Made by a program: the position numbers and the translations under genes. A stretch of 64,000 nucleotides of DNA from Cellulomonas humilata (GTDB lineage Bacteria > Actinomycetota > Actinomycetes > Actinomycetales > Cellulomonadaceae), in contig NZ_JABMCI010000070.1 of NCBI RefSeq assembly GCF_013359775.1, positions 310,001 through 374,000 of the forward strand. Direction: 5' to 3'. The notes beneath the pieces were generated by a model. The model was not told the DNA's origin. It worked only from the letters and a program-made list of their open reading frames with translations, and searched no databases. Positions 2,356 through 40,900 of this stretch are shown piece after piece. Numbering within the stretch: the first letter of the stretch is position 1; each line of letters starts with the position of its first letter.

Positions 2356-4257
2356 ATGGACCTGCTCACGCTCGCGCTCATCGGGCTCGTCGGTGGCCTC
2401 ATCACCGGCATCTCGCCGTGCATCCTGCCCGTGCTGCCCGTGGTGTTCTTCGCGGGTGGCGTGCAGGGGGCACGCGGTCGACCCGCCACGAAGGTGGTCT
2501 CGGGAGGCGCCGGCAAGGGCGCGGCCGGCTCGGTGGGGGCGATGGCGCAACCGTCGTTCCTCTCGGGGACCCGGGTCGCGACCGGCACCGGCACGACGAG
2601 CACCGGATCAGCCCTCGGTGGCGTCGCGATCCTGGAACCGCCTGCCGAGGAGAACGAGAAGCGCGACACGTCGTCGGCGCGCCGCCCCTACCTCGTCATC
2701 GCCGGCCTGGTCACCAGCTTCACGCTGGTCACCCTCGTCGGCACCGTGCTGCTGAACCTGCTCGGGCTGCCGCAGGACCTGCTGCGCTGGGCGGGCATCG
2801 CGGTGCTGGCGCTGCTGGGGGTCGGCCTGCTGGTGCCCCGGTTCGAGGAGGTCCTGGAGCGCCCGTTCCAGCGGCTGACCCCGAAGCGCGCGCCGGGTGC
2901 CGGCCGCGGCGGCTTCGTGCTGGGCCTGGGGCTCGGCGCGGTGTACGTGCCGTGCGCGGGACCGGTGCTGGCGGCGATCACGGTGGCCGGAGCGACGGGC
3001 TCGGTGGGCCCGGGCACGGTCGTCCTGACGGTGTCGTTCGCGCTGGGCGCGGCGATCCCGCTGCTGATCCTGGCGCTGGCGGGCCGTCGCGTGGCCGAGC
3101 GCATCGCCGCGTTCCGCACCCACCAGCGAGCGATCCGCGCGGCGGGCGGGGTGCTGATGGTCGCGCTGGCCCTGGCGTTGGCATTCAACCTCACCGACGC
3201 CATCCAGCGCGCGCTGCCCGGCTACACGGAGCAGCTCCAGGCGAGGGTCGCCGCCAACGAGACCGTGCGCGAGCAGCTGGACCTCGGCGGGCTGGTGACG
3301 GACGAGAACCGGCAGCTGGCCGAGTGCAGCAACAACTCCGCGGAGCTCGAGGACTGCGGACCCGCGCCGGCCATCCGAGGCATCGACACCTGGCTGAACA
3401 CGCCGGACGGCGCCCCGGTGGACCTGGCGGACCTGCGCGGCAAGGTGGTCCTGCTCGACTTCTGGGCGTACTCCTGCATCAACTGCCAGCGCTCGGTGCC
3501 GCACGTCACGGCCTGGGAGGAGGCCTACCGCGACGACGGCCTGGTCGTGATCGGGGTGCACACACCCGAGTACGCGTTCGAGCGCGAGACCCGGAACGTC
3601 GTCGACGGCGCCGAGCGGCTGGGCATCACCTACCCCGTGGCGCAGGACAACGCGTACGCCACCTGGACCGCCTACCGGAACCGCTACTGGCCGGCGCACT
3701 ACCTGATCGACGCCGACGGTCAGATCCGCCAGGTGTCGCAGGGCGAGGGCGGCTACGCCCAGACCGAGACCCTGATCCGGGAGCTCCTGACGCAGGCGGA
3801 CCCGGGGGTGACCCTCGGCGCGCGGACGCAGGTGGACGACACCACCCCGGTGGCCGACGTGACCCAGGAGACCTTCCTGTCGGTGAGCAAGAAGTCCAAC
3901 GTGTCCGGCGAGTACCGCGAGGGCGAGTCGACGTACACGCTCCCCGAGGACCAGCCGGCGGACACGGTCGCGCTCGGCGGGACGTGGACCACCGACTACC
4001 AGGGGGCGACCGCGGGACCCGACGCACGGCTGCGCCTGCGATACCACGCCGAGGTGGTGCAGGTGGTCCTCGGCGGGACGGGGGCGGTCACGGCCACCGT
4101 CCGCGACGAGGACGGGACGGTCGTGGACCGGGTGGAGCTGGCGGTCGACGGCTCGCCGCGGGCGTATGCGCTGGTCGATGACGATTCAGTACGCAGCGGC
4201 ACCGTCGAGCTGACTGCGCAGTCAGGGGTCCAGGTCTTCTCGTTCACCTTCGGGTGA
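2356..4257 (+). CDS. dipZ: DipZ-like CcdA-thioredoxin membrane protein
   Basis: Thiol-disulphide electron carrier of 633 residues. The N-terminal part is a CcdA/DsbD-type membrane domain with its two signature cysteines in SPCILP (Cys22) and VPCAGP (Cys200), split by a non-conserved loop at about 37-110. An extracytoplasmic thioredoxin-like domain follows, with the redox motif CINC at 374-377 in FWAYSCINC. The C-terminal beta-rich region from about 490 matches the DipZ C-terminal domain. The ATG at 2356 was chosen because the frame upstream runs antisense through the fasciclin gene. M. tuberculosis dipZ is in the SigK regulon beside mpt70/mpt83, as here. Its likely role is to pass reducing power to exported proteins. 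Confidence 0.9.
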   Translation: MDLLTLALIGLVGGLITGISPCILPVLPVVFFAGGVQGARGRPATKVVSGGAGKGAAGSVGAMAQPSFLSGTRVATGTGTTSTGSALGGVAILEPPAEENEKRDTSSARRPYLVIAGLVTSFTLVTLVGTVLLNLLGLPQDLLRWAGIAVLALLGVGLLVPRFEEVLERPFQRLTPKRAPGAGRGGFVLGLGLGAVYVPCAGPVLAAITVAGATGSVGPGTVVLTVSFALGAAIPLLILALAGRRVAERIAAFRTHQRAIRAAGGVLMVALALALAFNLTDAIQRALPGYTEQLQARVAANETVREQLDLGGLVTDENRQLAECSNNSAELEDCGPAPAIRGIDTWLNTPDGAPVDLADLRGKVVLLDFWAYSCINCQRSVPHVTAWEEAYRDDGLVVIGVHTPEYAFERETRNVVDGAERLGITYPVAQDNAYATWTAYRNRYWPAHYLIDADGQIRQVSQGEGGYAQTETLIRELLTQADPGVTLGARTQVDDTTPVADVTQETFLSVSKKSNVSGEYREGESTYTLPEDQPADTVALGGTWTTDYQGATAGPDARLRLRYHAEVVQVVLGGTGAVTATVRDEDGTVVDRVELAVDGSPRAYALVDDDSVRSGTVELTAQSGVQVFSFTFG

Positions 4258-4378
4258 CCGGCGACGAGCGTGGAGCAACCGCTCAGATACGCCCGAGCGG
4301 GTGAAAAGGGCGTATGTCCGGTTCTGGTTGCGGTGACACGCTTCCACGGACTCTCATGTTGCTCTAATGTCGGACTTG

Positions 4379-4460
4379 TCAGCGAAACGGCAAACCCTCT
4401 GCAAGGAGGGGACGCAAAGCCACGGGACCTACAGGGTCAGCCGGGCTACCGAACAGACAG
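4379..4460 (+). promoter_or_regulatory. Cyclic di-GMP-I (GEMM-I) riboswitch
   Basis: The aptamer core is recognisable from its conserved strings: GGCAAACC, a P2 stem capped by a GCAA tetraloop (CCCTCT/GGAGGG), GGACGCAAAGCC, then the P3 arm (GACC/GGTC) ending in AGCCGGGCTACCGA. These are hallmarks of GEMM-I RNAs, which sense c-di-GMP (rarely cGAMP). The start codon of a 50-codon ORF lies about ten bases after the aptamer, so translational control is more likely than termination. A weak -10-like TAATGT at 4365-4370 could start the RNA just before the aptamer. Confidence 0.88.
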
Positions 4461-4469
4461 GACAGTCCC

Positions 4470-4622
4470 ATGGACCAGCGCGGATACTCAGCGGACCCTT
4501 CCGAGACCTCCAACATCACCCCGGTGATCCCGGCCCTGCGCGTCACCGCGTGGGCTGGGCTGGCTGCGCGTCGCAGCGTGATCGAGCTGGTTCCGGCCCA
4601 GCGTGAGCACGCGGCCGCCTGA
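4470..4622 (+). CDS. 50-residue ORF directly under the GEMM-I riboswitch
   Basis: A short ORF of 50 codons, beginning MDQRGYSADPSETSNITPVI, that I do not recognise. It starts some ten bases after the riboswitch and ends 25 bases before a strong terminator, so it is the only coding sequence on that transcript. The predicted peptide is soluble, has no signal peptide and carries a basic/hydrophobic middle (WAGLAARRSVIEL). The purine run GACAGGACAG precedes the ATG with no strong Shine-Dalgarno. It may be a real small protein, a leader peptide, or an incidental frame on a regulatory RNA. Confidence 0.6.
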   Translation: MDQRGYSADPSETSNITPVIPALRVTAWAGLAARRSVIELVPAQREHAAA

Positions 4623-4646
4623 GCACAGGCACCGCAACCCTCTTCC

Positions 4647-4683
4647 CAGAACCCCTCGGACCGTCATGGTCCGGGGGGTTCTG
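4647..4683 (+). terminator. Rho-independent-type terminator after the riboswitch ORF
   Basis: A 16-bp stem, CAGAACCCCTCGGACC against GGTCCGGGGGGTTCTG, with one T-G wobble and a 5-base loop (GTCAT). No long T tract follows. It closes the riboswitch transcript at about 300 bases. Confidence 0.8.
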
Positions 4684-4803
4684 TGATGCCGCAGGTCAGG
4701 GCCGCGCAGCCGCACGTCGAGGGTGCCGTTTGCGTGGGATGTCCGATACTGTCGGACGCGAGCGAGCTCGCCGCTCGGGGGGCTGCCGTCGAGAGAGGGT
4801 GCC

Positions 4804-5181
4804 ATGAACAGCTTCTTGGATTGGTTCTGGCTGCTGGTCTACTGGTTCCTGTTCTTCGCGTACCTCATCATCCTGTTCCAGATCATCGGGGACCTGTTCC
4901 GCGACCGGGATCTCGGCGGATTCGCGAAGGCCGTGTGGCTCATCGCGCTGGTCTTCCTCCCGTTCCTGACCGCGCTGATCTACGTGATCGCCCGCGGCAA
5001 GGGGATGGCGGAGCGCCAGGTCGAGGCGATCCAGAAGGCGAAGTCCGACACCGACACCTACATCCGCGAGGTGGCGGGCAAGTCTCCGGTGGAGCACATC
5101 GCGGAGGCCAAGGCCCTCCTCGACGCCGGCACCATCGACGCGGGCGAGTTCGCGACGCTCAAGGCCAAGGCCCTCGCCTGA
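4804..5181 (+). CDS. PLDc_N and SHOCT domain membrane protein
   Basis: Small membrane protein of 125 residues. Two hydrophobic helices (about residues 5-28 and 40-65) form a PLDc_N-type (cardiolipin synthase N-terminal-like) unit with the usual W..AL.FLPFL.ALIY.I.RG pattern. A C-terminal SHOCT motif follows (about 98-125: IAEAKALLDAGTIDAGEFATLKAKAL). SHOCT units are thought to mediate oligomerisation. The ATG follows GAGAGAGGG. The gene stands alone between the riboswitch terminator and a convergent gene; its precise role is unknown. Confidence 0.8.
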   Translation: MNSFLDWFWLLVYWFLFFAYLIILFQIIGDLFRDRDLGGFAKAVWLIALVFLPFLTALIYVIARGKGMAERQVEAIQKAKSDTDTYIREVAGKSPVEHIAEAKALLDAGTIDAGEFATLKAKALA

Positions 5182-5206
5182 CCGGTCGCTCTGACCGACG
5201 AGCTGC

Positions 5207-7744
5207 CTAGAGCTCGCCGGTCTTCTGCAGCACCCGCATGGCCACCCAGCCGAGGGGGATGCGCAGCCAGTAGGTGGCCACGCGGAACAGCACGGCGATC
5301 GACGTCGCGATACCGGGGTTGATGCCGGTGATGAAGGTGAGCGTGCTCGCGAGGGACAGCTCGATGGTGCCCATGCCGCCGGGGGTCGGGACGAGGGCGC
5401 CCGCGGTGTTGCCCGCCAGGTAGACGAGTGCCACCTGGATGAGCGTGGCGTCCTGCCCGAACGCGGCGAGGCTCGCGTCGAACGCGAAGATGAAGCCGAG
5501 CGTCATCAGCAGGTTGCCGCCCACGGCCAGCGCCAGCCGCCAGGGCTGCCCGAGCACCTCGATGAGGCGCGGCCACGTCTGGCGCAGGGTCGGCATGGTC
5601 TTGGCCAGCGCCCACTGACGCACCTTGGGCACCAGGAGCGCCGACGCGACCAGCGCGGCGACGATCCCCAGGACGAGCAGGACGACGGGCGAGACCGGCA
5701 GCGCCGACTCCTTGTTGCCGGACGCGATGGTCAGGACCAGCAGCAGACCGAGCGTGACGACGAACTGGCTCACCTGGACGAGTGCGACGGTGGCCGCGGC
5801 CAGGGTGGTCGACACCCCGCGCTTGGTGAGCATCCGCAGGTTCAGCGCGGCGGGTCCGATGCCGGCGGGTGCGGCCAGCCCGACGAAGGTGGCGGCGGTC
5901 TGCACCAGCGTGGCGCGCCACAGCGGGAGCTTGACGGGCGAGAACGCGACGAACGCCAGCGCCGCCCCGACGAGTGTGATGAGCCCGAGCGCGAACGCGA
6001 CCACCGTCCAGCGCCAGTCACCGGCGGCGAGCGCGGAGGTGATCTCGTCGACGTTGATGCTGGTGATGACGAAGACGATCGCGATGATCGGCACGACGAT
6101 CGTCAGCACGGTGCGGGCGCCGAAGCGGACCAGCTGCTGCGGCTCCACGTCGGCCTCGGGGAGCCGGGCGACGAGTGCCGACCGGAGCTCCGCCAGCACC
6201 TTCTTGTCCGCCCGCATCTCGTCGCGGGTCAGGCGGGGCAGCGTGATCGTCTGGAGCAGGGGGCCGATCGCCGCGACGTGCTCGGCGGGGACGACGTTCG
6301 CGGCCGACTCGAGCGCGCGCGTGGCCCCCACCCGCAGGGCGAGCAGCGCGACCAGCTGGGTGACGTCCATGCGACGGGCCAGCTCCGAGGAGGCGACGTC
6401 GCCCTGCTCCCAGCTGGTCAGCCAGACGACGGGGCGGCCGACGACCGTCTCGACCAGCAGGACGTCGCTGGTCAGCGAGCGGTGGGCGATCCCGGCGTCG
6501 TGCGCGAGCTGGAGCTGCGCCCAGAGCTCCTGGAGGACCTCGTCGGTGAGCTCCTCGGTGGCCAGGTCGCTCAGCGGGACCGCGTGCCCGGGGCGCTCCT
6601 GGACCAGCAGCATGGAGTCGTCGGCCTCGGCGATGCTCAGCAGCTTGGGGGTGCGGACGCCGGCGGCGCGCGCGGCGTAGGCGAGCAGGGCGGTCCGCTC
6701 GGCCGCCTGTCGCAGCGACACCACCGAGCGCCCTTCGATCCCGCGCAGCCGCAGCGACCGCCACAGCCGGGTCAGCATGCCGACCACCTGCCGGTCGCCG
6801 TCCACGACCACCAGGTCCAGCTCGTCGCCGTCGTCGGTCGTCAGCTCGTACACGCGGTGGTCGGTGGAGCGGGTGAGCGCCCGGGCGGCGGAGTCGCCGT
6901 CGAGCTCGTCGGCCCCGACCTCGGACTCCGCCTCCGTCGTCGCGTCCGCCACCCGGCTCAGCTGGACGGGCTCGAACCCGGCGCGCCGCACGCCGGCCAC
7001 CAGGCTCGCCCCGTACGCCCGCTCCGACTGCACGCCGGACAGGTAGCGCACCCCGAGCCCCGTCACCCGGCCGATCAGGAAGGAGACGGCCAGCCCCGGC
7101 AGCGAGACGCCGGCGGTGATGAGCAGCACGCCGACCGCGACCCAGATGAGGTTCCACGACCACTTGACCGTCCGGCGGCGACCACGCGGACCGACGACCG
7201 TGAGCAGGCCGACCAGCAGCGCGACGTACCCGGGGAGCGTGACGATCCACTCGTTGTCCGACCGGATCGACATGCCGATCACGAGCTCGTCGGACCCGAG
7301 CGTGGTGATCGCCCAGTAGACGGCCGCGTTGAGGGCGAGGGCGGCGAGCGCGGCGACCAGACCCTCGACCAGCTGCCGGCCGAGCCGGCGGATTGCGAGC
7401 TCGGTGATGACCGCGAGGGGGACGGCGACGATGACGAAGCCCTCGAGCAGCGTGACGGGGACGAAGAGGATCCGCTTGAGCAGCGTGGCGAAGCCCTGGA
7501 CGTCCTCCGCCACGCCGGTGGTCGTGTTGTGGGCGTACGTCGCCAGCACCAGCACGAGCGCGATGCCGAGGGCGGACAGCACGGTGCCCAGCAGGTCGCT
7601 CGGGTGGTGCACGCGGACGGTGGGCACGTCGTGGATCACGACCTCGCGTGCAGGATCTGCCGCCACCTCGACCTCGGCGGGCGCGACGACGTCCGTGGGC
7701 GCAGCGGCGTCTGCCGCTGCGCGACTGGCGGGCGTCGCGGGCAT
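5207..7744 (-). CDS. Pseudokinase fused to lysylphosphatidylglycerol-synthase-type flippase domain
   Basis: Integral membrane protein of 845 residues in three parts: an N-terminal block of about six membrane helices (about 40-230), a cytoplasmic protein-kinase-like region (about 270-520), and a C-terminal UPF0104/LPG-synthase-TM domain (about 555-840) with the conserved G(I)GPAALNLRML and PTPGGMGTIE motifs. In the kinase part the HRDLKPxN loop reads HRSLTSDVLL and the DFG site is not recognisable, so it is probably a non-catalytic pseudokinase. The LPG-type membrane domain flips lipids in known members. The ATG at 7744 opens the conserved part; an in-frame extension exists further up. Confidence 0.8.
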   Translation of the reverse strand: MPATPASRAAADAAAPTDVVAPAEVEVAADPAREVVIHDVPTVRVHHPSDLLGTVLSALGIALVLVLATYAHNTTTGVAEDVQGFATLLKRILFVPVTLLEGFVIVAVPLAVITELAIRRLGRQLVEGLVAALAALALNAAVYWAITTLGSDELVIGMSIRSDNEWIVTLPGYVALLVGLLTVVGPRGRRRTVKWSWNLIWVAVGVLLITAGVSLPGLAVSFLIGRVTGLGVRYLSGVQSERAYGASLVAGVRRAGFEPVQLSRVADATTEAESEVGADELDGDSAARALTRSTDHRVYELTTDDGDELDLVVVDGDRQVVGMLTRLWRSLRLRGIEGRSVVSLRQAAERTALLAYAARAAGVRTPKLLSIAEADDSMLLVQERPGHAVPLSDLATEELTDEVLQELWAQLQLAHDAGIAHRSLTSDVLLVETVVGRPVVWLTSWEQGDVASSELARRMDVTQLVALLALRVGATRALESAANVVPAEHVAAIGPLLQTITLPRLTRDEMRADKKVLAELRSALVARLPEADVEPQQLVRFGARTVLTIVVPIIAIVFVITSINVDEITSALAAGDWRWTVVAFALGLITLVGAALAFVAFSPVKLPLWRATLVQTAATFVGLAAPAGIGPAALNLRMLTKRGVSTTLAAATVALVQVSQFVVTLGLLLVLTIASGNKESALPVSPVVLLVLGIVAALVASALLVPKVRQWALAKTMPTLRQTWPRLIEVLGQPWRLALAVGGNLLMTLGFIFAFDASLAAFGQDATLIQVALVYLAGNTAGALVPTPGGMGTIELSLASTLTFITGINPGIATSIAVLFRVATYWLRIPLGWVAMRVLQKTGEL

Positions 7745-7893
7745 AGGGGCGAGTCTAGGCAGCCACGCCGCACGCGCTCGGTAGGGCGCGTGACCTGCCG
7801 GGACGGGTTCGCGCGCGTCGGGGTGCTTCGTCCGGATCCTCCAACTAGCGTGAGGAGCGGGATCATGTCGCTCCAACGTGCCGGGAGGCTCCG

Positions 7894-8481
7894 ATGTCCG
7901 ACGAACTCACGGCCGACGTCTCGTCCGCGCTCCGCCGGATCTGGTGGCTCCCGATCCTGCGCGGCGTGGTGCTGGTGATCCTGGGGCTGTTCATGCTGGT
8001 GCAGCCGCTGGGCACGGTGAAGGCGCTCGTGTGGGTGTTCGGGGTGTTCGCGATCATCGACGGGCTGGTGGCCATCGCGCAGTGGCTGGGCAACCGCAAG
8101 GAGCCGGGTGCCGGCTGGTGGCTGATCTCGGGCCTCGTCGGCATCGCGTTCGGTGTGACCGCCGTGGTGTGGACCGGGCCGACCGCGCAGGTGATCTTCT
8201 ACCTGATCGCGCTGTGGGTGCTGGTGCTCGGGATCCTGTCGGTGATTGCCGCGGTGGTCCTGTACCGGTCGCGGGACATCGGCTGGTACTGGGTGCTGAC
8301 CTTCGGCCTGATCGCGTTCCTGTTCGGGCTGCTGCTGATCATGAACCCGCAGACGTCGGTGAGCGTCATCGTCGTGCTGCTGGGCCTGTACGCGTTCGTC
8401 GGCGGCGTGGTGCTCATCGTGAGCGGCTTCGCCACCAAGCAGCTGGCGAAGCAGCTGGACCAGGGGTCGGCCACGGTCTGA
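7894..8481 (+). CDS. HdeD/DUF308 family membrane protein
   Basis: Membrane protein of 195 residues with about six hydrophobic helices in pairs, each pair carrying the DUF308 pattern of Gly-rich helices separated by short polar loops (for example WWLPILRGVVLVILGLFML near the start). HdeD of enteric bacteria supports acid resistance, but actinobacterial members have no defined role. It begins with ATG after GGGAGGCTCCG and ends four bases from the stop of the convergent protease gene. Confidence 0.85.
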   Translation: MSDELTADVSSALRRIWWLPILRGVVLVILGLFMLVQPLGTVKALVWVFGVFAIIDGLVAIAQWLGNRKEPGAGWWLISGLVGIAFGVTAVVWTGPTAQVIFYLIALWVLVLGILSVIAAVVLYRSRDIGWYWVLTFGLIAFLFGLLLIMNPQTSVSVIVVLLGLYAFVGGVVLIVSGFATKQLAKQLDQGSATV

Positions 8482-8485
8482 CGAC

Positions 8486-9319
8486 CTAGTTCAGCCCGAT
8501 CGCCGCGAGCCACGCGGCGGGGACGAGCGCGTAGCCGACGAACACGACCATGTCCATGAGCGTGTGCGCCATGACGAGCGGCATGACCCGTCGCCTGCGC
8601 CGGTAGTACTCGGCGAACAGCAGGCCCATGATCGCGTTCCCGACGAACGCGCCCCAGCCCTGGTACAGGTGGTAGGAGCCGCGTAGGAGGGCGCTGGCCA
8701 CGACGATCGCAGGCGCGCTCCAGCGCAGCTCGCGCAGCCGCTCCATGAGGTAGCCGACGACGATGACCTCCTCGAGCAGCGCGTTCTGCAGCGCCGCGAG
8801 CAGGAGCACGGGGATGGTCCACCAGGCGGCGTTCAGGGCGGACGCCTGCACCTCGACGGCCAGCCCGAGCGCCCGCGCCGCCGCGTACAGGCCGAGCCCG
8901 GGGATGCCGATCAGGGCGGCCAGGCCCACGCCCACCGCGAGATCCCGCCAGGGGCGCGTGAGCTCGAGCCCGATGCGGCGGACCGCCGACTTCCCGTTGG
9001 CCGAGAGCAGGTACAGGGCCAGCGCGACCGGGACCAGGGCGAAGCCGATCTGGAGCAGCTGGTAGGTCAGGTCGAGCCAGGGGCGCGGCGAGCGGCTGGG
9101 GTTGAGGGTGGTCGACTGGTCGGCCAGCGGGGGACCGGCGGTGAGCCGGTCGATGATGTTGACCACCGCGTAGAGCCCGGACTTGCCCAGCGACAGCCCG
9201 AGCACGATCCAGATCTCGGTGGTCAGCCGACGGCGGTAGGCGCGCTGGCTGGGCGGCGGGGCCGCGAGCGCCGAGGCGGCGAGGTCAGGGGTCGCGTCGG
9301 CGGGCGTCGGCGCAGTCAT
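8486..9319 (-). CDS. CPBP family intramembrane metalloprotease
   Basis: Membrane protein of 277 residues with about seven or eight helices. The three CPBP (Abi/CAAX protease-like) motifs are present: the di-glutamate motif ALLEEVIVVGYLMERLR, the middle NAIMGLLFAEYYRRR, and HTLMDMVVF near the C terminus, which supply the metal-binding Glu and His residues. Family members cleave membrane substrates or act in immunity to bacteriocins; no partner is visible here. ATG 9319 was chosen because upstream codons lack the family pattern. Confidence 0.85.
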   Translation of the reverse strand: MTAPTPADATPDLAASALAAPPPSQRAYRRRLTTEIWIVLGLSLGKSGLYAVVNIIDRLTAGPPLADQSTTLNPSRSPRPWLDLTYQLLQIGFALVPVALALYLLSANGKSAVRRIGLELTRPWRDLAVGVGLAALIGIPGLGLYAAARALGLAVEVQASALNAAWWTIPVLLLAALQNALLEEVIVVGYLMERLRELRWSAPAIVVASALLRGSYHLYQGWGAFVGNAIMGLLFAEYYRRRRRVMPLVMAHTLMDMVVFVGYALVPAAWLAAIGLN

Positions 9320-37423: not shown

Positions 37424-38071
37424 ATGACCCGCACCCTCACCGCGCACGACGACCTCGAGCTGCACCGGGTCGGCTACGAGCGCGGCGACGTGCTGGTGCG
37501 CACCCCGCTGGGCCCGGTCGCGCACCGCTACCGGGTGGACACGACCAGCCCGCTGGTGGTCGACGGGCTGGTCCGCCTCGACGAGGTCGGGGACGACGGA
37601 GTGCGGTTCCTCGACACCAACCTGGTCCCGCTGACCGTCCGGGACCTGCGGCGGTTCCGGATCCTGGTGAAGGTGGCTGGTGCCGTCCGGTCGCCTTCGA
37701 CACCGACCGGCACGTCATCCCCGGCGGGATCCCCGGACCTAGCCGACCTGCGCGACGACGCCCTCGACAACGGCCTGGTCGACGGCGCGGACTTCACGGT
37801 CGGCGGTCCGCCGGGCGACGAGTGCATCACGTTCGTGGACGGGCCCGACGGATTCGTCGTGGGCTACCGGGACGCCGGCGCCGAGAGCACCCTGTTCGCG
37901 TCGCGGTCGTTCGCGCAGGCGCGGGCGGTGTTCCTCGACGAGGCGTGCTGGCTCGGCGCCGAGCGGGGCCGCGGACCGTACGTCGGCCGCGACCAGGCCG
38001 TCGGCACCGAGGGCTGGACGTCTGCGCAGGTGGTGGCCGCCTACGAGCGCCGGCTGCTCGACGGCGCGTAG
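37424..38071 (+). CDS. Hypothetical protein
   Basis: Soluble protein of 215 residues with no signal peptide or membrane segment. The first half is beta-rich with an alternating pattern; a Pro/Ser/Thr insert (STPTGTSSPAGSPD) occurs around 92-105; the second half includes GFVVGYRDAGAESTLFASRSFAQARAVFLDEACWLGAERGRG. No family is recognised. The ATG is 29 bases after the bkdC stop on the same strand; it may be read through from that operon, but a separate start is equally likely. Confidence 0.6.
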   Translation: MTRTLTAHDDLELHRVGYERGDVLVRTPLGPVAHRYRVDTTSPLVVDGLVRLDEVGDDGVRFLDTNLVPLTVRDLRRFRILVKVAGAVRSPSTPTGTSSPAGSPDLADLRDDALDNGLVDGADFTVGGPPGDECITFVDGPDGFVVGYRDAGAESTLFASRSFAQARAVFLDEACWLGAERGRGPYVGRDQAVGTEGWTSAQVVAAYERRLLDGA

Positions 38072-38147
38072 CCCGGACTGCACACCTGGGCGTCGAGCCG
38101 CGTTCTAGGGGGGTAAGCCCATCCGCACGCAGCTCCCGGAGGACGCC

Positions 38148-38684
38148 ATGAACCCCAGCACCACCCGCACCCGACGCTTCGTCGCCGTCGGAGCCGTCGC
38201 CGTCGGCCTCTGCGTCGCCGGCACCGGCGTCGCCACGGCGGCCGCCCCCACCTCGGCCCTGTCGCGGTCGGTCACCGAGATCCTGCAGTCGGCGGGCGTC
38301 GACTGGTCGACGATGCCCGACGGGTACACGCCGGAGCAGTACCAGGCCTTCTGGGGTGCGGGGTACACGCCCGAGAACGTCGAGGAGCTGGGTGCGCTCT
38401 GGAACCTGGACACGACGGAGACCAAGGCGCGGGCCGGCCAGCTGCTGCTCGACGGGCAGCCCGTGCCGGTGGCGCCGGGCGGCGGCGAGTCGACCCCGAC
38501 GGTCGAGATCACCGGCGCCCAGCTCGACGCGCTCTTCGGCGCCGGGTACACGGGGGAGGACGTCGAGGCGCTCGCCGAGCTCTGGCACAGCGAGTTCGGC
38601 GAGACCAAGGCGCGCGCGGGCCAGATGATCCTCGACGGGCAGACTCCTCCCGTGGCCCCGAGCGGTACCCCCGCCACCTCCTGA
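38148..38684 (+). CDS. Secreted two-repeat protein (AGYT/ETKARAG repeat)
   Basis: Exported protein of 178 residues: a Sec signal peptide (about 1-33, cleavage near ATA-AAP) and two copies of a ~39-residue repeat at about 65-103 and 126-164. The shared core is AGYTxExV..L..LW followed by ETKARAG(Q)xxLDGQ; both copies are preceded or followed by Pro-rich spacers (PVAP). The same repeat occurs twice in the membrane protein at 40265-40900. I do not recognise this repeat as a named domain. GGAGGA lies seven bases before the ATG. It heads an apparent operon with the amidoligase gene 28 bases later. Confidence 0.75.
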   Translation: MNPSTTRTRRFVAVGAVAVGLCVAGTGVATAAAPTSALSRSVTEILQSAGVDWSTMPDGYTPEQYQAFWGAGYTPENVEELGALWNLDTTETKARAGQLLLDGQPVPVAPGGGESTPTVEITGAQLDALFGAGYTGEDVEALAELWHSEFGETKARAGQMILDGQTPPVAPSGTPATS

Positions 38685-38712
38685 CCTGACGACCTTCGCG
38701 AGGGGAGACGAC

Positions 38713-39735
38713 GTGGACGTGCTGTCGCTGCGGACCGGCTTCGAGATCGAGCTGCTGGCGCCCGCCGGTTCCGACCGGCAGGTGCTGGCCGACGAGCTCG
38801 CGGCGCGCTGCGACGGCCGGGTGCGGCGGTCCTTCCACACCGACTCCGAGCCGTCGGTGGTGCCCGGCGTGGGCGTCTTCCGGCACCTGTCGCCGGCGTT
38901 CGACGTGGTCGACGCCGACGGTCGTCCGGTGGCGCGGCTCGTCGACGACATCACCCTCGAGGCCGATCTGCTCCCGGTGCCCGGACGCTCCGGGCACCGG
39001 GGCTGGTACCGGGTGCTGTGCGACGACGCCCGGCTGCTGCGCCTGGTCGAGCGGCACGCGGACCCGGACGCACCCCTGACGACGGTGCTGGACCGGGTGG
39101 CCGAGCTGTTCGGGGTGCGGGCGGAGGTCGTCGGCTCGGCGGTGCGCGTCGACGACACCCGCGGCGCCACCGTCGCCGTGGCGATGCCGCTGCCGGCGGG
39201 TCGGGAGCGACCCTGCGAGATCATCACGCCGCCGCTGTCCGCCGACCACGCCGTCGCGCTGGAGCGGCTGCTCGCCCCGGCTCGCGAGCTCGGCTTCACC
39301 GTTCCGCAGGAGGCCGCGGTGCACCTGCACGTGGACGGGGCACCGTTCCGCCGGCCGGAGTCGTTCGCCAACCTGGTACGGCTGTTCGGCCACCGGCGCG
39401 AGGAGCTGTGGGCCGCCCTGGGCACCAACCCCGCCTGCCGACGGCTCGCGCCGCTGCCCGACGCGTTGCTCGAGCTCGTCGAGCAGCCGGGGTTCACCGT
39501 CGCCGCAGCGCGCTCGATCGGCCTCACCAAGTACGCCGACGTGAACCTCACCCAGCTCGTCACCGACCGCCCCCTGCGCGACACCGTCGAGGTGCGGATC
39601 CTGCCCGGCGACCTCGACGGACCCGCGATCGTCAGGCGCGCCGCGTTGGTGGAGGCCCTGCTCGCCCGGTGCCTCGACCCGCGCCCCCTGCCCCGGGGCG
39701 CGCCGCTGGACGACCTGGCCGGAGTCCGACGATGA
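38713..39735 (+). CDS. Putative amidoligase (glutamine-synthetase/GCS-fold COOH-NH2 ligase)
   Basis: Cytoplasmic enzyme of 340 residues with the amidoligase (PF12224-type) motif order: GFEIEL at 9-14, CEIITPP at 168-174, VHLHVD at 203-208, KYADVNL at 273-279 and VEVRILPG at 292-299. These acidic and His residues match the metal/ATP-binding positions of the glutamine-synthetase-like fold. The family was proposed to join amino and carboxyl groups in peptide modification or metabolite synthesis; substrates of nearly all members are unknown. GTG start behind AGGGGAG. Its stop overlaps the sigma factor start (ATGA). Confidence 0.8.
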   Translation: MDVLSLRTGFEIELLAPAGSDRQVLADELAARCDGRVRRSFHTDSEPSVVPGVGVFRHLSPAFDVVDADGRPVARLVDDITLEADLLPVPGRSGHRGWYRVLCDDARLLRLVERHADPDAPLTTVLDRVAELFGVRAEVVGSAVRVDDTRGATVAVAMPLPAGRERPCEIITPPLSADHAVALERLLAPARELGFTVPQEAAVHLHVDGAPFRRPESFANLVRLFGHRREELWAALGTNPACRRLAPLPDALLELVEQPGFTVAAARSIGLTKYADVNLTQLVTDRPLRDTVEVRILPGDLDGPAIVRRAALVEALLARCLDPRPLPRGAPLDDLAGVRR

Positions 39736-40268
39736 GCGTCGACAGCGCCGCGATCCCCGTGGTGGAGCCCGCGCTCGACGACCTCGTGCGCGTCCACCTG
39801 GCCGGGCTGCTGCGGTACGCCACCGTGCTGACCGGCGACGGCCACACGGCTGCCGACCTCGTGCAGGAGGTCCTGCTGCGTGCGCACGTGCGCTGGACCC
39901 GGATCGCCCTGCTGGAGCGGCCCGACCTGTACCTGCGCCGGATGGTCACCAACGAGCACCTGTCCTGGCGCCGGCGCTGGCACGTGCGGACCATCCGCCC
40001 GGCCACGGACGAGGTCCTGGCCGCCCACTCCGACGCGCACGGCGACCACGCCGACGACGTCGTGCACCAGGACGCGATGTGGAGACGCCTCGAGGCCCTG
40101 CCTCCGCGTCAGCGCGCGGTGCTGGTGCTCCGGTACTACGAGGGCCTCAGCGACATGGAGATCTCCCAGGTCCTGGGCACGTCCCCGGCCACGGTCCGCT
40201 CCCACGCCTCGCGGGCGCTGGCGACCTTGCGTGACACCGACAGCTCGACCCGAACGGAGAAGCGATGA
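39732..40268 (+). CDS. ECF sigma factor, SigE family (actinobacterial)
   Basis: Sigma factor of 178 residues. Region 2 includes LLRYATVLTGDGHTAADLVQEVLLRAHVRW and RRMVTNEHLSWRRR; region 4 has LPPRQRAVLVLRYYEGLSDMEISQVLGTSPATVRSHASRALATL with a complete helix-turn-helix. The pattern matches the actinobacterial SigE-type (TIGR02983) group. It overlaps both neighbours by four bases. The downstream gene has the position and topology of an anti-sigma factor, so this sigma probably responds to an envelope signal and may drive its own operon. Confidence 0.9.
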   Translation: MSVDSAAIPVVEPALDDLVRVHLAGLLRYATVLTGDGHTAADLVQEVLLRAHVRWTRIALLERPDLYLRRMVTNEHLSWRRRWHVRTIRPATDEVLAAHSDAHGDHADDVVHQDAMWRRLEALPPRQRAVLVLRYYEGLSDMEISQVLGTSPATVRSHASRALATLRDTDSSTRTEKR

Positions 40269-40900
40269 GCGAGCACCCGCACGACGACGAGCTGATCGCC
40301 CGGATCACCCGTGCGCTGCACTCTCGCGACGCCGAGCAGCCCGACCCTGCTCTCGTCGCGGCCCGGCTCCGGGCCGAGCTCGCCCACCCGCCGGAGGCCA
40401 CGGTGACCACCCTGCGGCGACGCGGCGGGAAGCTGGTCGCGGCCGGCGTCGTCACGTCCGCGCTGGCCGTCGCCGGGGCGGGTGCGGCCGCAGCGGCCAA
40501 CCCGTACTCCGACGCCGCCCGCAGGTTCGAGGTCGTCGTGCAGTCGGTGGGGATCGACTGGTCGGCGATGCCGGCGGGCTACACCCGGGAGCAGTACGAG
40601 GCCTTCTGGGCTGCCGGGTACACCCCCGAGGACGTCACCGCGCTCGAGGAGCTGTGGCACACCGACACCACCGAGACGAAGGCGCGCGCCGGGCAGCTGC
40701 TCCTGGACGGCGACACGCCCCCCGTGGCACCCGGCCGGGTCGCGCTGCCCGGGCAGGCCGAGGCGGACGCGTTCTGGTCCGCCGGCTACACGATCGAGGA
40801 CGTCGAGACGCTCAGTGCGCTGTGGCAGACCGACCCGTTCGAGACGAAGGCGCGCGCGGGCCGGCTCATCCTCGACGGACAGCAGCTCCCGCTGGACTGA
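40265..40900 (+). CDS. Membrane-anchored two-repeat protein, candidate anti-sigma factor
   Basis: Protein of 211 residues. Residues 1-55 are cytoplasmic and charged (HPHDDELIARITRALHSRD), one membrane helix lies at about 57-78, and the outside part contains two copies of the AGYT/ETKARAG repeat (about 111-149 and 167-205) found in the secreted protein at 38148-38684. The DWSxMPxGYTxEQY lead-in is also shared. It directly follows the sigma gene (ATGA), the usual place and topology of an anti-sigma factor, but no HxxxCxxC zinc motif is present. The cytoplasmic part as sigma-binding is inference. Its last 35 bases overlap the convergent gene. Confidence 0.7.
   Translation: MSEHPHDDELIARITRALHSRDAEQPDPALVAARLRAELAHPPEATVTTLRRRGGKLVAAGVVTSALAVAGAGAAAAANPYSDAARRFEVVVQSVGIDWSAMPAGYTREQYEAFWAAGYTPEDVTALEELWHTDTTETKARAGQLLLDGDTPPVAPGRVALPGQAEADAFWSAGYTIEDVETLSALWQTDPFETKARAGRLILDGQQLPLD

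Follow-up and report, generated by a model that had tools for sequence, protein, structure and literature searches.

A predicted amidoligase and an exported repeat protein form a conserved gene pair in Cellulomonas and related bacteria, often accompanied by a sigma factor module

The 64,000-nucleotide stretch of DNA analysed here (the window), from contig NZ_JABMCI010000070.1 of Cellulomonas humilata, carries at 38148-40900 a cassette of four plus-strand open reading frames (ORFs), which we call A, B, C and D. They encode an exported repeat protein, an amidoligase, a sigma factor of the extracytoplasmic function (ECF) type and a membrane protein that bears the same repeat as A. This four-gene set had been delimited in a first-pass annotation made from the letters alone, and it is confirmed by the ORF coordinates, together with the 28 bases between A and B and the ATGA stop/start overlaps at B/C and C/D. 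The elements of the cassette are as follows, with the evidence for each in brackets.

38078-38104, plus strand: ECF-type promoter motif (CTGCACA, 16-base spacer, CGTT) whose end lies 43 bases upstream of the A start codon (upstream alignment, motif scan)
38148-38684, plus strand: gene A, exported protein of 178 amino acids (ORF call, hydropathy, aligned orthologues, and the ratio of nonsynonymous to synonymous substitution rates, dN/dS)
38325-38471, plus strand: repeat 1 of A, whose sole lysine is residue 93 at 38424-38426 (repeat alignment)
38511-38654, plus strand: repeat 2 of A, whose sole lysine is residue 154 at 38607-38609 (repeat alignment)
38713-39735, plus strand: gene B, amidoligase (Amidoligase_2, PF12224) of 340 amino acids with a GTG start (Pfam, conserved residues, hydropathy)
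39732-40268, plus strand: gene C, ECF sigma factor of 178 amino acids (Sigma70_r2 and Sigma70_r4_2, TIGR02937)
40265-40900, plus strand: gene D, membrane protein of 211 amino acids, predicted anti-sigma factor (position, topology, homology to A)
40433-40510, plus strand: transmembrane segment of D with the juxtamembrane motif GAAAAANPYS (hydropathy, orthologue conservation)
40580-40726, plus strand: repeat 1 of D (repeat alignment)
40754-40894, plus strand: repeat 2 of D (repeat alignment)

In three pairwise comparisons among the window and loci L037 and L038, dN/dS reached 0.11-0.36 for A, 0.21-0.35 for B, 0.10-0.17 for C and 0.18-0.38 for D. Since all values fall between 0.10 and 0.38, the four ORFs behave like real genes under purifying selection. 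The window's Cellulomonas is near strain Root930, and the B protein of L037 is 90% identical to that of the window.

The amidoligase call on B, which rested on the motifs GFEIEL, VHLHVD and VEVRILPG, all present in the protein, is borne out by a profile search. Indeed, residues 6-316 match Pfam Amidoligase_2 over model positions 3-244 of 245 with 61.8 bits (cut-off 22, E 1.2e-16). It is the only family over its Pfam cut-off, no ATP-grasp family being found, and the Pup ligase family is absent among the Pfam matches at E up to 1, while the PDB sequences returned one match at E 0.3. Residues E11, E13, E169, H204, H206, E293 and R295 do not vary among 22 B proteins that are 63-90% identical to the window's, and they are kept in the 45 proteins of the B tree except for an asparagine in place of H206 at locus L105 and one row that starts after E13. 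From the motifs of the family, these seven are likely active-site residues. An alignment with a distant member in genome G391 points the same way, since the blocks E-[IL]-[IV]-T-x-P, H-x-H and E-x-R of B correspond in it, the score itself being not significant. Hydropathy revealed no strongly hydrophobic export segment in B. The Amidoligase_2 family was reportedly predicted by Iyer et al. in 2009, and the roles in peptide or protein modification predicted for its members are, to our knowledge, untested. The minus strand of locus L140 encodes, at 3219-4502, an Amidoligase_2 protein of another sort, whose N-terminus is cysteine-rich and zinc-ribbon-like; an ORF of 256 amino acids follows it on the same strand.

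A is laid out as an N-terminal signal sequence, with a signal-peptide-like hydrophobic segment at residues 11-29 by hydropathy, a lead-in of about 25 residues containing VGxDWSxMPxGYT, two repeats and a Ser/Pro/Gly tail. D has a single transmembrane segment (residues 57-75 by hydropathy) and, next to it, the motif GAAAAANPYS, of which G73-A77 and P80 are invariant and A78, N79, Y81 and S82 nearly so in 17 orthologues; this motif resembles a signal-peptidase site. That A and D share a repeat had been seen at first reading, and the sharing turns out to be wider. A profile alignment over 168 columns, with 54% identity and E 2.3e-73, runs from the hydrophobic segment through the last repeat and thus takes in the whole ectodomain plus the signal or transmembrane segment. 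By this homology, D looks in effect like an N-terminal cytoplasmic piece followed by a copy of A. The repeat had also been described as rich in Lys, Asp and Glu, which is right for the two acidic residues and wrong for lysine: each of the four repeats has one, and the whole of A has two, both of them repeat lysines.

Conservation within the 48-residue repeat was assessed on 168 distinct repeats from 49 loci, many of which share genomes; they were drawn from 239 domains with a domain E of no more than 1e-3, those with more than 8 gaps being dropped and identical repeats counted once. A profile search of this kind favours look-alike repeats and may miss weaker ones. Trp25, Lys33 and Pro47 are invariant (168/168), followed by Leu21 (165/168), Gly37 (160/168) and Asp17 (156/168), and arginine never replaces the lysine at position 33 (0/168). 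Background lysine is about 1% (134 of 12867 residues in 39 roughly called ORFs of window positions 20001-64000). Other A proteins may hold more lysines than that of the window: 26 of them have 85 in their repeats, 9 in linkers after residue 35 and a few further ones within the first 35 residues. The number of repeats ranges from one to five across proteins, from one (L110, L048) to four (L100, L104, L106) in exported proteins and from one (L105, L048) to five (L056) in D, and the invariant lysine is kept throughout. Weak scattered matches were all that the repeat, A and D gave, none over a curated cut-off of Pfam or NCBIfam. The best PDB sequence for the repeat had an E of 0.11, which is not significant, the 17 D orthologues matched just three families (E 0.008 or worse), RsgI_N not being one of them, and the window's D had neither a Pfam match at E up to 1 nor an NCBIfam family over cut-off. 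The repeat is therefore a domain family undescribed in the Pfam, NCBIfam and PDB collections searched here. A UBA-like fold, an idea drawn from the helix pattern, found no support in the PDB sequence search and is not claimed.

An invariant repeat lysine would be a natural acceptor for a COOH-NH2 ligase. One way of using it would be for B to cross-link Lys to Asp or Glu, between or within repeats, giving a protease-stable surface or a cyclised peptide, in the manner of a graspetide whose maker would here have a glutamine-synthetase fold. PMC8939145 describes graspetides as made from a precursor, sometimes with several core repeats, encoded beside a ligase that forms side-chain amide bonds. The multi-repeat protein beside a ligase, the invariance of Lys33 and the frequent acidic residues around it would all suit such a product. 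However, no acidic position is invariant: besides the variation at Asp17, 58 of 67 repeats have an acidic residue (Glu or Asp) at the second position ahead of the lysine. Moreover, graspetide ligases are ATP-grasp enzymes whereas B belongs to Amidoligase_2, which sets the cassette outside the graspetides, and, unlike theirs, the repeats here are 48-residue domain-like units on an exported protein. Such cross-linking thus seems improbable to us. Its intra-repeat form, Asp17 to Lys33, had been considered on a first set in which position 17 was Asp in 66 of 67 repeats; with the larger set, and with Asn at that position in repeat 1 of the window's A, it was set aside except as a minor rival.

The distribution of the enzyme and of the repeat is nearly the same. 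Among 148 related genomes, profiles detected the repeat in 37 and B in 36, every one of which also has the repeat, and the two are confined to the same six of 46 genera; the extra repeat genome, G072, has a single-repeat gene. With a single protein A as query, 38 genomes were found, the additional one through a weak partial match in G050. Across 346 phylum-wide genomes, B and the repeat were each found in G000 and G419 only. Amidoligase_2 as a whole occurs in five of 346 genomes sampled in the same way, and the other three (G315, G391 and G403) are not among the repeat matches of the phylum-wide search. Within each genome this search scores just part of its first-look candidates (for B in the phylum-wide set, 5 out of up to 80 listed), so that weak cases can be missed, and related species are not independent, which makes the co-occurrence figures counts and not probabilities. 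An enzyme subfamily so closely tied to a single family of exported repeats is the pattern that an enzyme and its dedicated protein substrate would be expected to leave. Spread of the cassette by viruses or plasmids was considered and rejected, as none of 75 viral candidate stretches encodes a relative and no plasmid match was found.

Gene order in relatives was one check proposed with the first-pass annotation, which took a lack of synteny as an argument against a shared system; synteny and co-occurrence proved strong and give that argument no support. In named genomes, B lies in 21 loci of Cellulomonas, Actinotalea, Kineococcus, Sanguibacter and Myceligenerans, and 16 of these have A-B-C-D complete and in order. 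The remaining five consist of A-B followed by a contig end (L046, L049), an A cut by a contig end and then B-C-D (L048), C with a five-repeat D and then B (L056), and a deletion remnant of A followed by B-C-D (L043). At L043 the remnant (about 4857-4960) keeps the promoter and the last residues of A, and its genome also holds an intact second cassette at a distance of about 7 kb (L051, L116). In a wider sample of 40 B genes from 37 genomes (G419 in addition to the 36 of the 148-genome set; in G067 a short further piece of B is left out of the count), a repeat gene stands directly upstream of B on the same strand in 37. The three exceptions are the first copy of G052 with its A remnant, G003, where A lies about 7 kb upstream with genes between, and G067, where the contig breaks. 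The G003 locus (L112) is a decaying cassette, with four ORFs of about 300-950 amino acids between A and B (3159-9088) and a deletion at about 11050 that removed the last part of C and the first part of D.

Of the 37 B genes with a readable downstream side, 29 are followed by C and by a D that encodes repeats, the decaying G003 cassette being counted among them. The other eight are a C-D-A-B locus in G134, a locus of G102 whose contig ends inside A, and six A-B pairs without an adjacent sigma gene (G077, G078, the second copy of G008, G103, G135 and G419). In the midpoint-rooted tree of 45 B proteins, for which support values were not printed, the Cellulomonas sigma-less type sits within the A-B-C-D clade, and the remaining sigma-less pairs belong to the other clade, alongside C-D-B and C-D-A-B loci. 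Since sigma-less pairs occur in two places of the tree, the sigma module appears recurrent but dispensable. The six pairs led us to reject the sigma factor as the heart of the system and to regard A-B as the core and C-D as a common regulatory add-on; with its gene directly upstream in 37 of 40 cases, sigma-less loci included, A is the closest partner of B. The whole had first been viewed as an envelope-sensing system, a role that no longer suits its core and may still suit the add-on. The 29 linked cases could also point to an ECF sigma/anti-sigma operon of the ordinary kind, with A and B as mere regulon members of separate function, a sigma and an anti-sigma gene under a self-controlled promoter being a common arrangement. 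Yet A-B persists without sigma in the six readable cases and in distant families, and every genome with B also has the repeat in both genome sets, which makes separate functions very improbable in our view.

Some repeat genes were met outside the usual arrangement. A second Cellulomonas subtype (L107, L108, L109, L115) has a repeat protein and an amidoligase without sigma, adjoined by a gene that we take to be dNTPase-like and, in L107-L109, with a presumably aminoglycoside-acetyltransferase-like gene nearby on the other side. The third repeat protein of G000 (contig C68, 141576-141962, within L006 4574-5560, minus strand) has no amidoligase or sigma gene beside it and keeps the invariant lysine; L114 holds a similar stand-alone copy. 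Upstream of A in the window, a 215-amino-acid ORF at 37424-38071 matched nothing in Pfam or NCBIfam with an E of 1 or below. It was dismissed as a fifth member, for it adjoins A only in L037-L040 and L054, is displaced in L041 and finds no match in the remaining 15 named loci.

C matches Sigma70_r2 and Sigma70_r4_2 over the Pfam cut-offs and the ECF superfamily model TIGR02937 with 81.9 bits (cut-off 42.9). Although SigE-fam_strep (TIGR02983) is its best match, the score of 137.4 bits falls just under the cut-off of 141.55. The sequence and position of D predict that it is the anti-sigma factor of C, on the basis of gene overlap, topology and conservation. Zinc-binding anti-sigma factors carry the motif HxxxCxxC; the window's D contains no cysteine and so falls outside this class, and it has no RsgI_N match in Pfam at E up to 1.

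Aligned across 22 loci, the DNA upstream of A shows conservation of CT[CG]CACA, 16-17 bases and CGT[CT], the flanks being much less conserved, and the window contains a single match where 0.29 is expected by chance. The strict motif is present in 19 of the 21 named loci, with L048 (contig end) and L056 (C-D-B order) as misses, and in 25 of 29 further loci, many from the same genomes. The four without it are L074, which is a genuine A-B-C-D locus; L084, whose A is displaced; L097, where the contig breaks; and L098, which has no sigma gene. None of the six sigma-less A-B pairs has the motif, and it is likewise missing from the C-D-A-B locus L105, the stand-alone repeat genes L006 and L114, and G013, whose contig ends before C is visible; the upstream side of G102 is unreadable, the contig ending inside A. 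The motif thus goes with the sigma gene. Sigma-dependent transcription had been suggested to start within 38072-38147: a conserved ECF-type promoter that tracks the sigma gene does lie there, and C would be the factor acting on it. Within the own genome the motif has 18 matches, 14 of them inside called ORFs, and the backwards-read control also has 18. A wider regulon was therefore rejected; none is visible by this measure, and the sigma factor may serve mainly its own operon. One of the four intergenic matches (L132 1501-1527), which could be due to chance, is located 132 bases upstream of an ORF whose product, of about 455 residues, resembles a D-alanyl-D-alanine carboxypeptidase.

The best explanation of the whole, which we put forward tentatively and short of calling it probable, is that A and B form a pair of exported substrate and modifying enzyme to which C-D adds sensing. 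B, as a cytoplasmic ATP-dependent amidoligase, would join a carboxylate (from a peptide, a small acid or a free amino acid) to the amino group on the side chain of the invariant lysine in every repeat of A. Because B has no export signal, this modification would precede the export of A through its N-terminal signal sequence, and the repeats of D might also receive the ligated group from B before export. D, as the anti-sigma factor of C, would display the same two repeats outside the membrane, and since it does so it could report the state of the repeat or a partner bound by both A and D. It may then release C, perhaps after cleavage at the signal-peptidase-like site, and the freed C would transcribe A-B-C-D from 38078-38104. 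The first-pass annotation had proposed that the repeat proteins, or another peptide, are modified or bound; for the repeat proteins, either event would fit the A-B pairing and the invariant lysine.

Several observations weigh against this explanation. The repeat lysine might be structural or ligand-binding, given that Trp25 and Pro47 are equally invariant, and variation at position 17, with Asn in repeat 1 of A, weakens the Asp17-Lys form of the idea. The distant B of L105 has Asn at H206, one proposed active-site position. Repeat genes also occur alone (L006, L114), though both genomes have B elsewhere, and in G072 without any B; the G072 remnant L110, which lacks B, C and D, still has the promoter motif, the A-B-C-D locus L074 lacks it, and its count in the own genome equals that of the control. 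Finally, the same data fit a repeat that binds a ligand. B could make a diffusible amide, such as a conjugated amino acid, or alter a wall precursor, the product being bound by the repeats; A would then be a secreted binding protein and D a ligand-sensing anti-sigma factor, with the invariant Lys and Trp lining the pocket. Co-occurrence, sigma-less A-B pairs, the ectodomain shared by A and D and the invariant Lys, Trp and Pro would be explained equally well, and RsgI6 and Xyn10D provide a precedent for an anti-sigma ectodomain like a secreted enzyme (PMC4711584). Yet, by eye, no third neighbour gene is common to the different mapped lineages, some of which have A-B in the same order with nothing else shared beside them, and the close pairing of enzyme subfamily and repeat family is at least as well accounted for by an enzyme and the protein on which it acts. 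We regard this ligand-based alternative as rather unlikely.

The substrate-enzyme reading has partial parallels in known systems. B stands apart within Amidoligase_2 as a tight subfamily that has an exported repeat protein for a partner of its own. PMC3511204 presents PafA, the Pup ligase of actinobacteria, as a glutamine-synthetase derivative acting on protein lysines. B may be related to it at the level of fold family and, by analogy, in being a ligase for protein lysines; it differs in having no Pup ligase match and in its presumed target, a dedicated exported repeat. The search for a Pup-like modifier covered the four cassette genes only. For the sharing of a domain between A and D, a precedent is found in RsgI of Clostridium thermocellum, a membrane-bound anti-sigma factor with an outer domain that can share homology with a secreted protein, in a system that has sigma genes with their own sigma-I-type promoters (PMC4711584). 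In contrast, D has no RsgI_N, the shared domain is an undescribed repeat and not a carbohydrate-binding module, and an amidoligase lies within the operon. For cleavage, PMC4183432 reports an AXA-like signal-peptidase site beside the transmembrane segment of RsiV; GAAAAANPYS is similarly placed in D, which has no Pfam or NCBIfam match to RsiV, and its cleavage is a guess by analogy. Literature searches returned no paper that joins an ECF sigma factor with an amidoligase, the founding 2009 Amidoligase_2 paper lying outside the search, so that an earlier mention is possible; by title, the entries listed for amidoligase, Amidoligase_2 and COOH-NH2 ligase contained nothing of this kind.

To conclude, the cassette could represent a new class of exported, enzyme-modified repeat proteins of actinobacteria, carrying on the invariant lysine of each repeat a group attached by a glutamine-synthetase-fold ligase and sensed by a sigma/anti-sigma pair whose anti-sigma factor is built from the substrate repeat, a possibility that we consider doubtful as a whole. 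One subfamily of Amidoligase_2 now has a well-marked partner protein, which is small, exported and, in the window, endowed with a single lysine per repeat. For a regulator to share its domain with the likely substrate of the enzyme would make an unusual self-monitoring circuit, and the gene set suggests a new kind of protein modification that is sensed by the cell itself.

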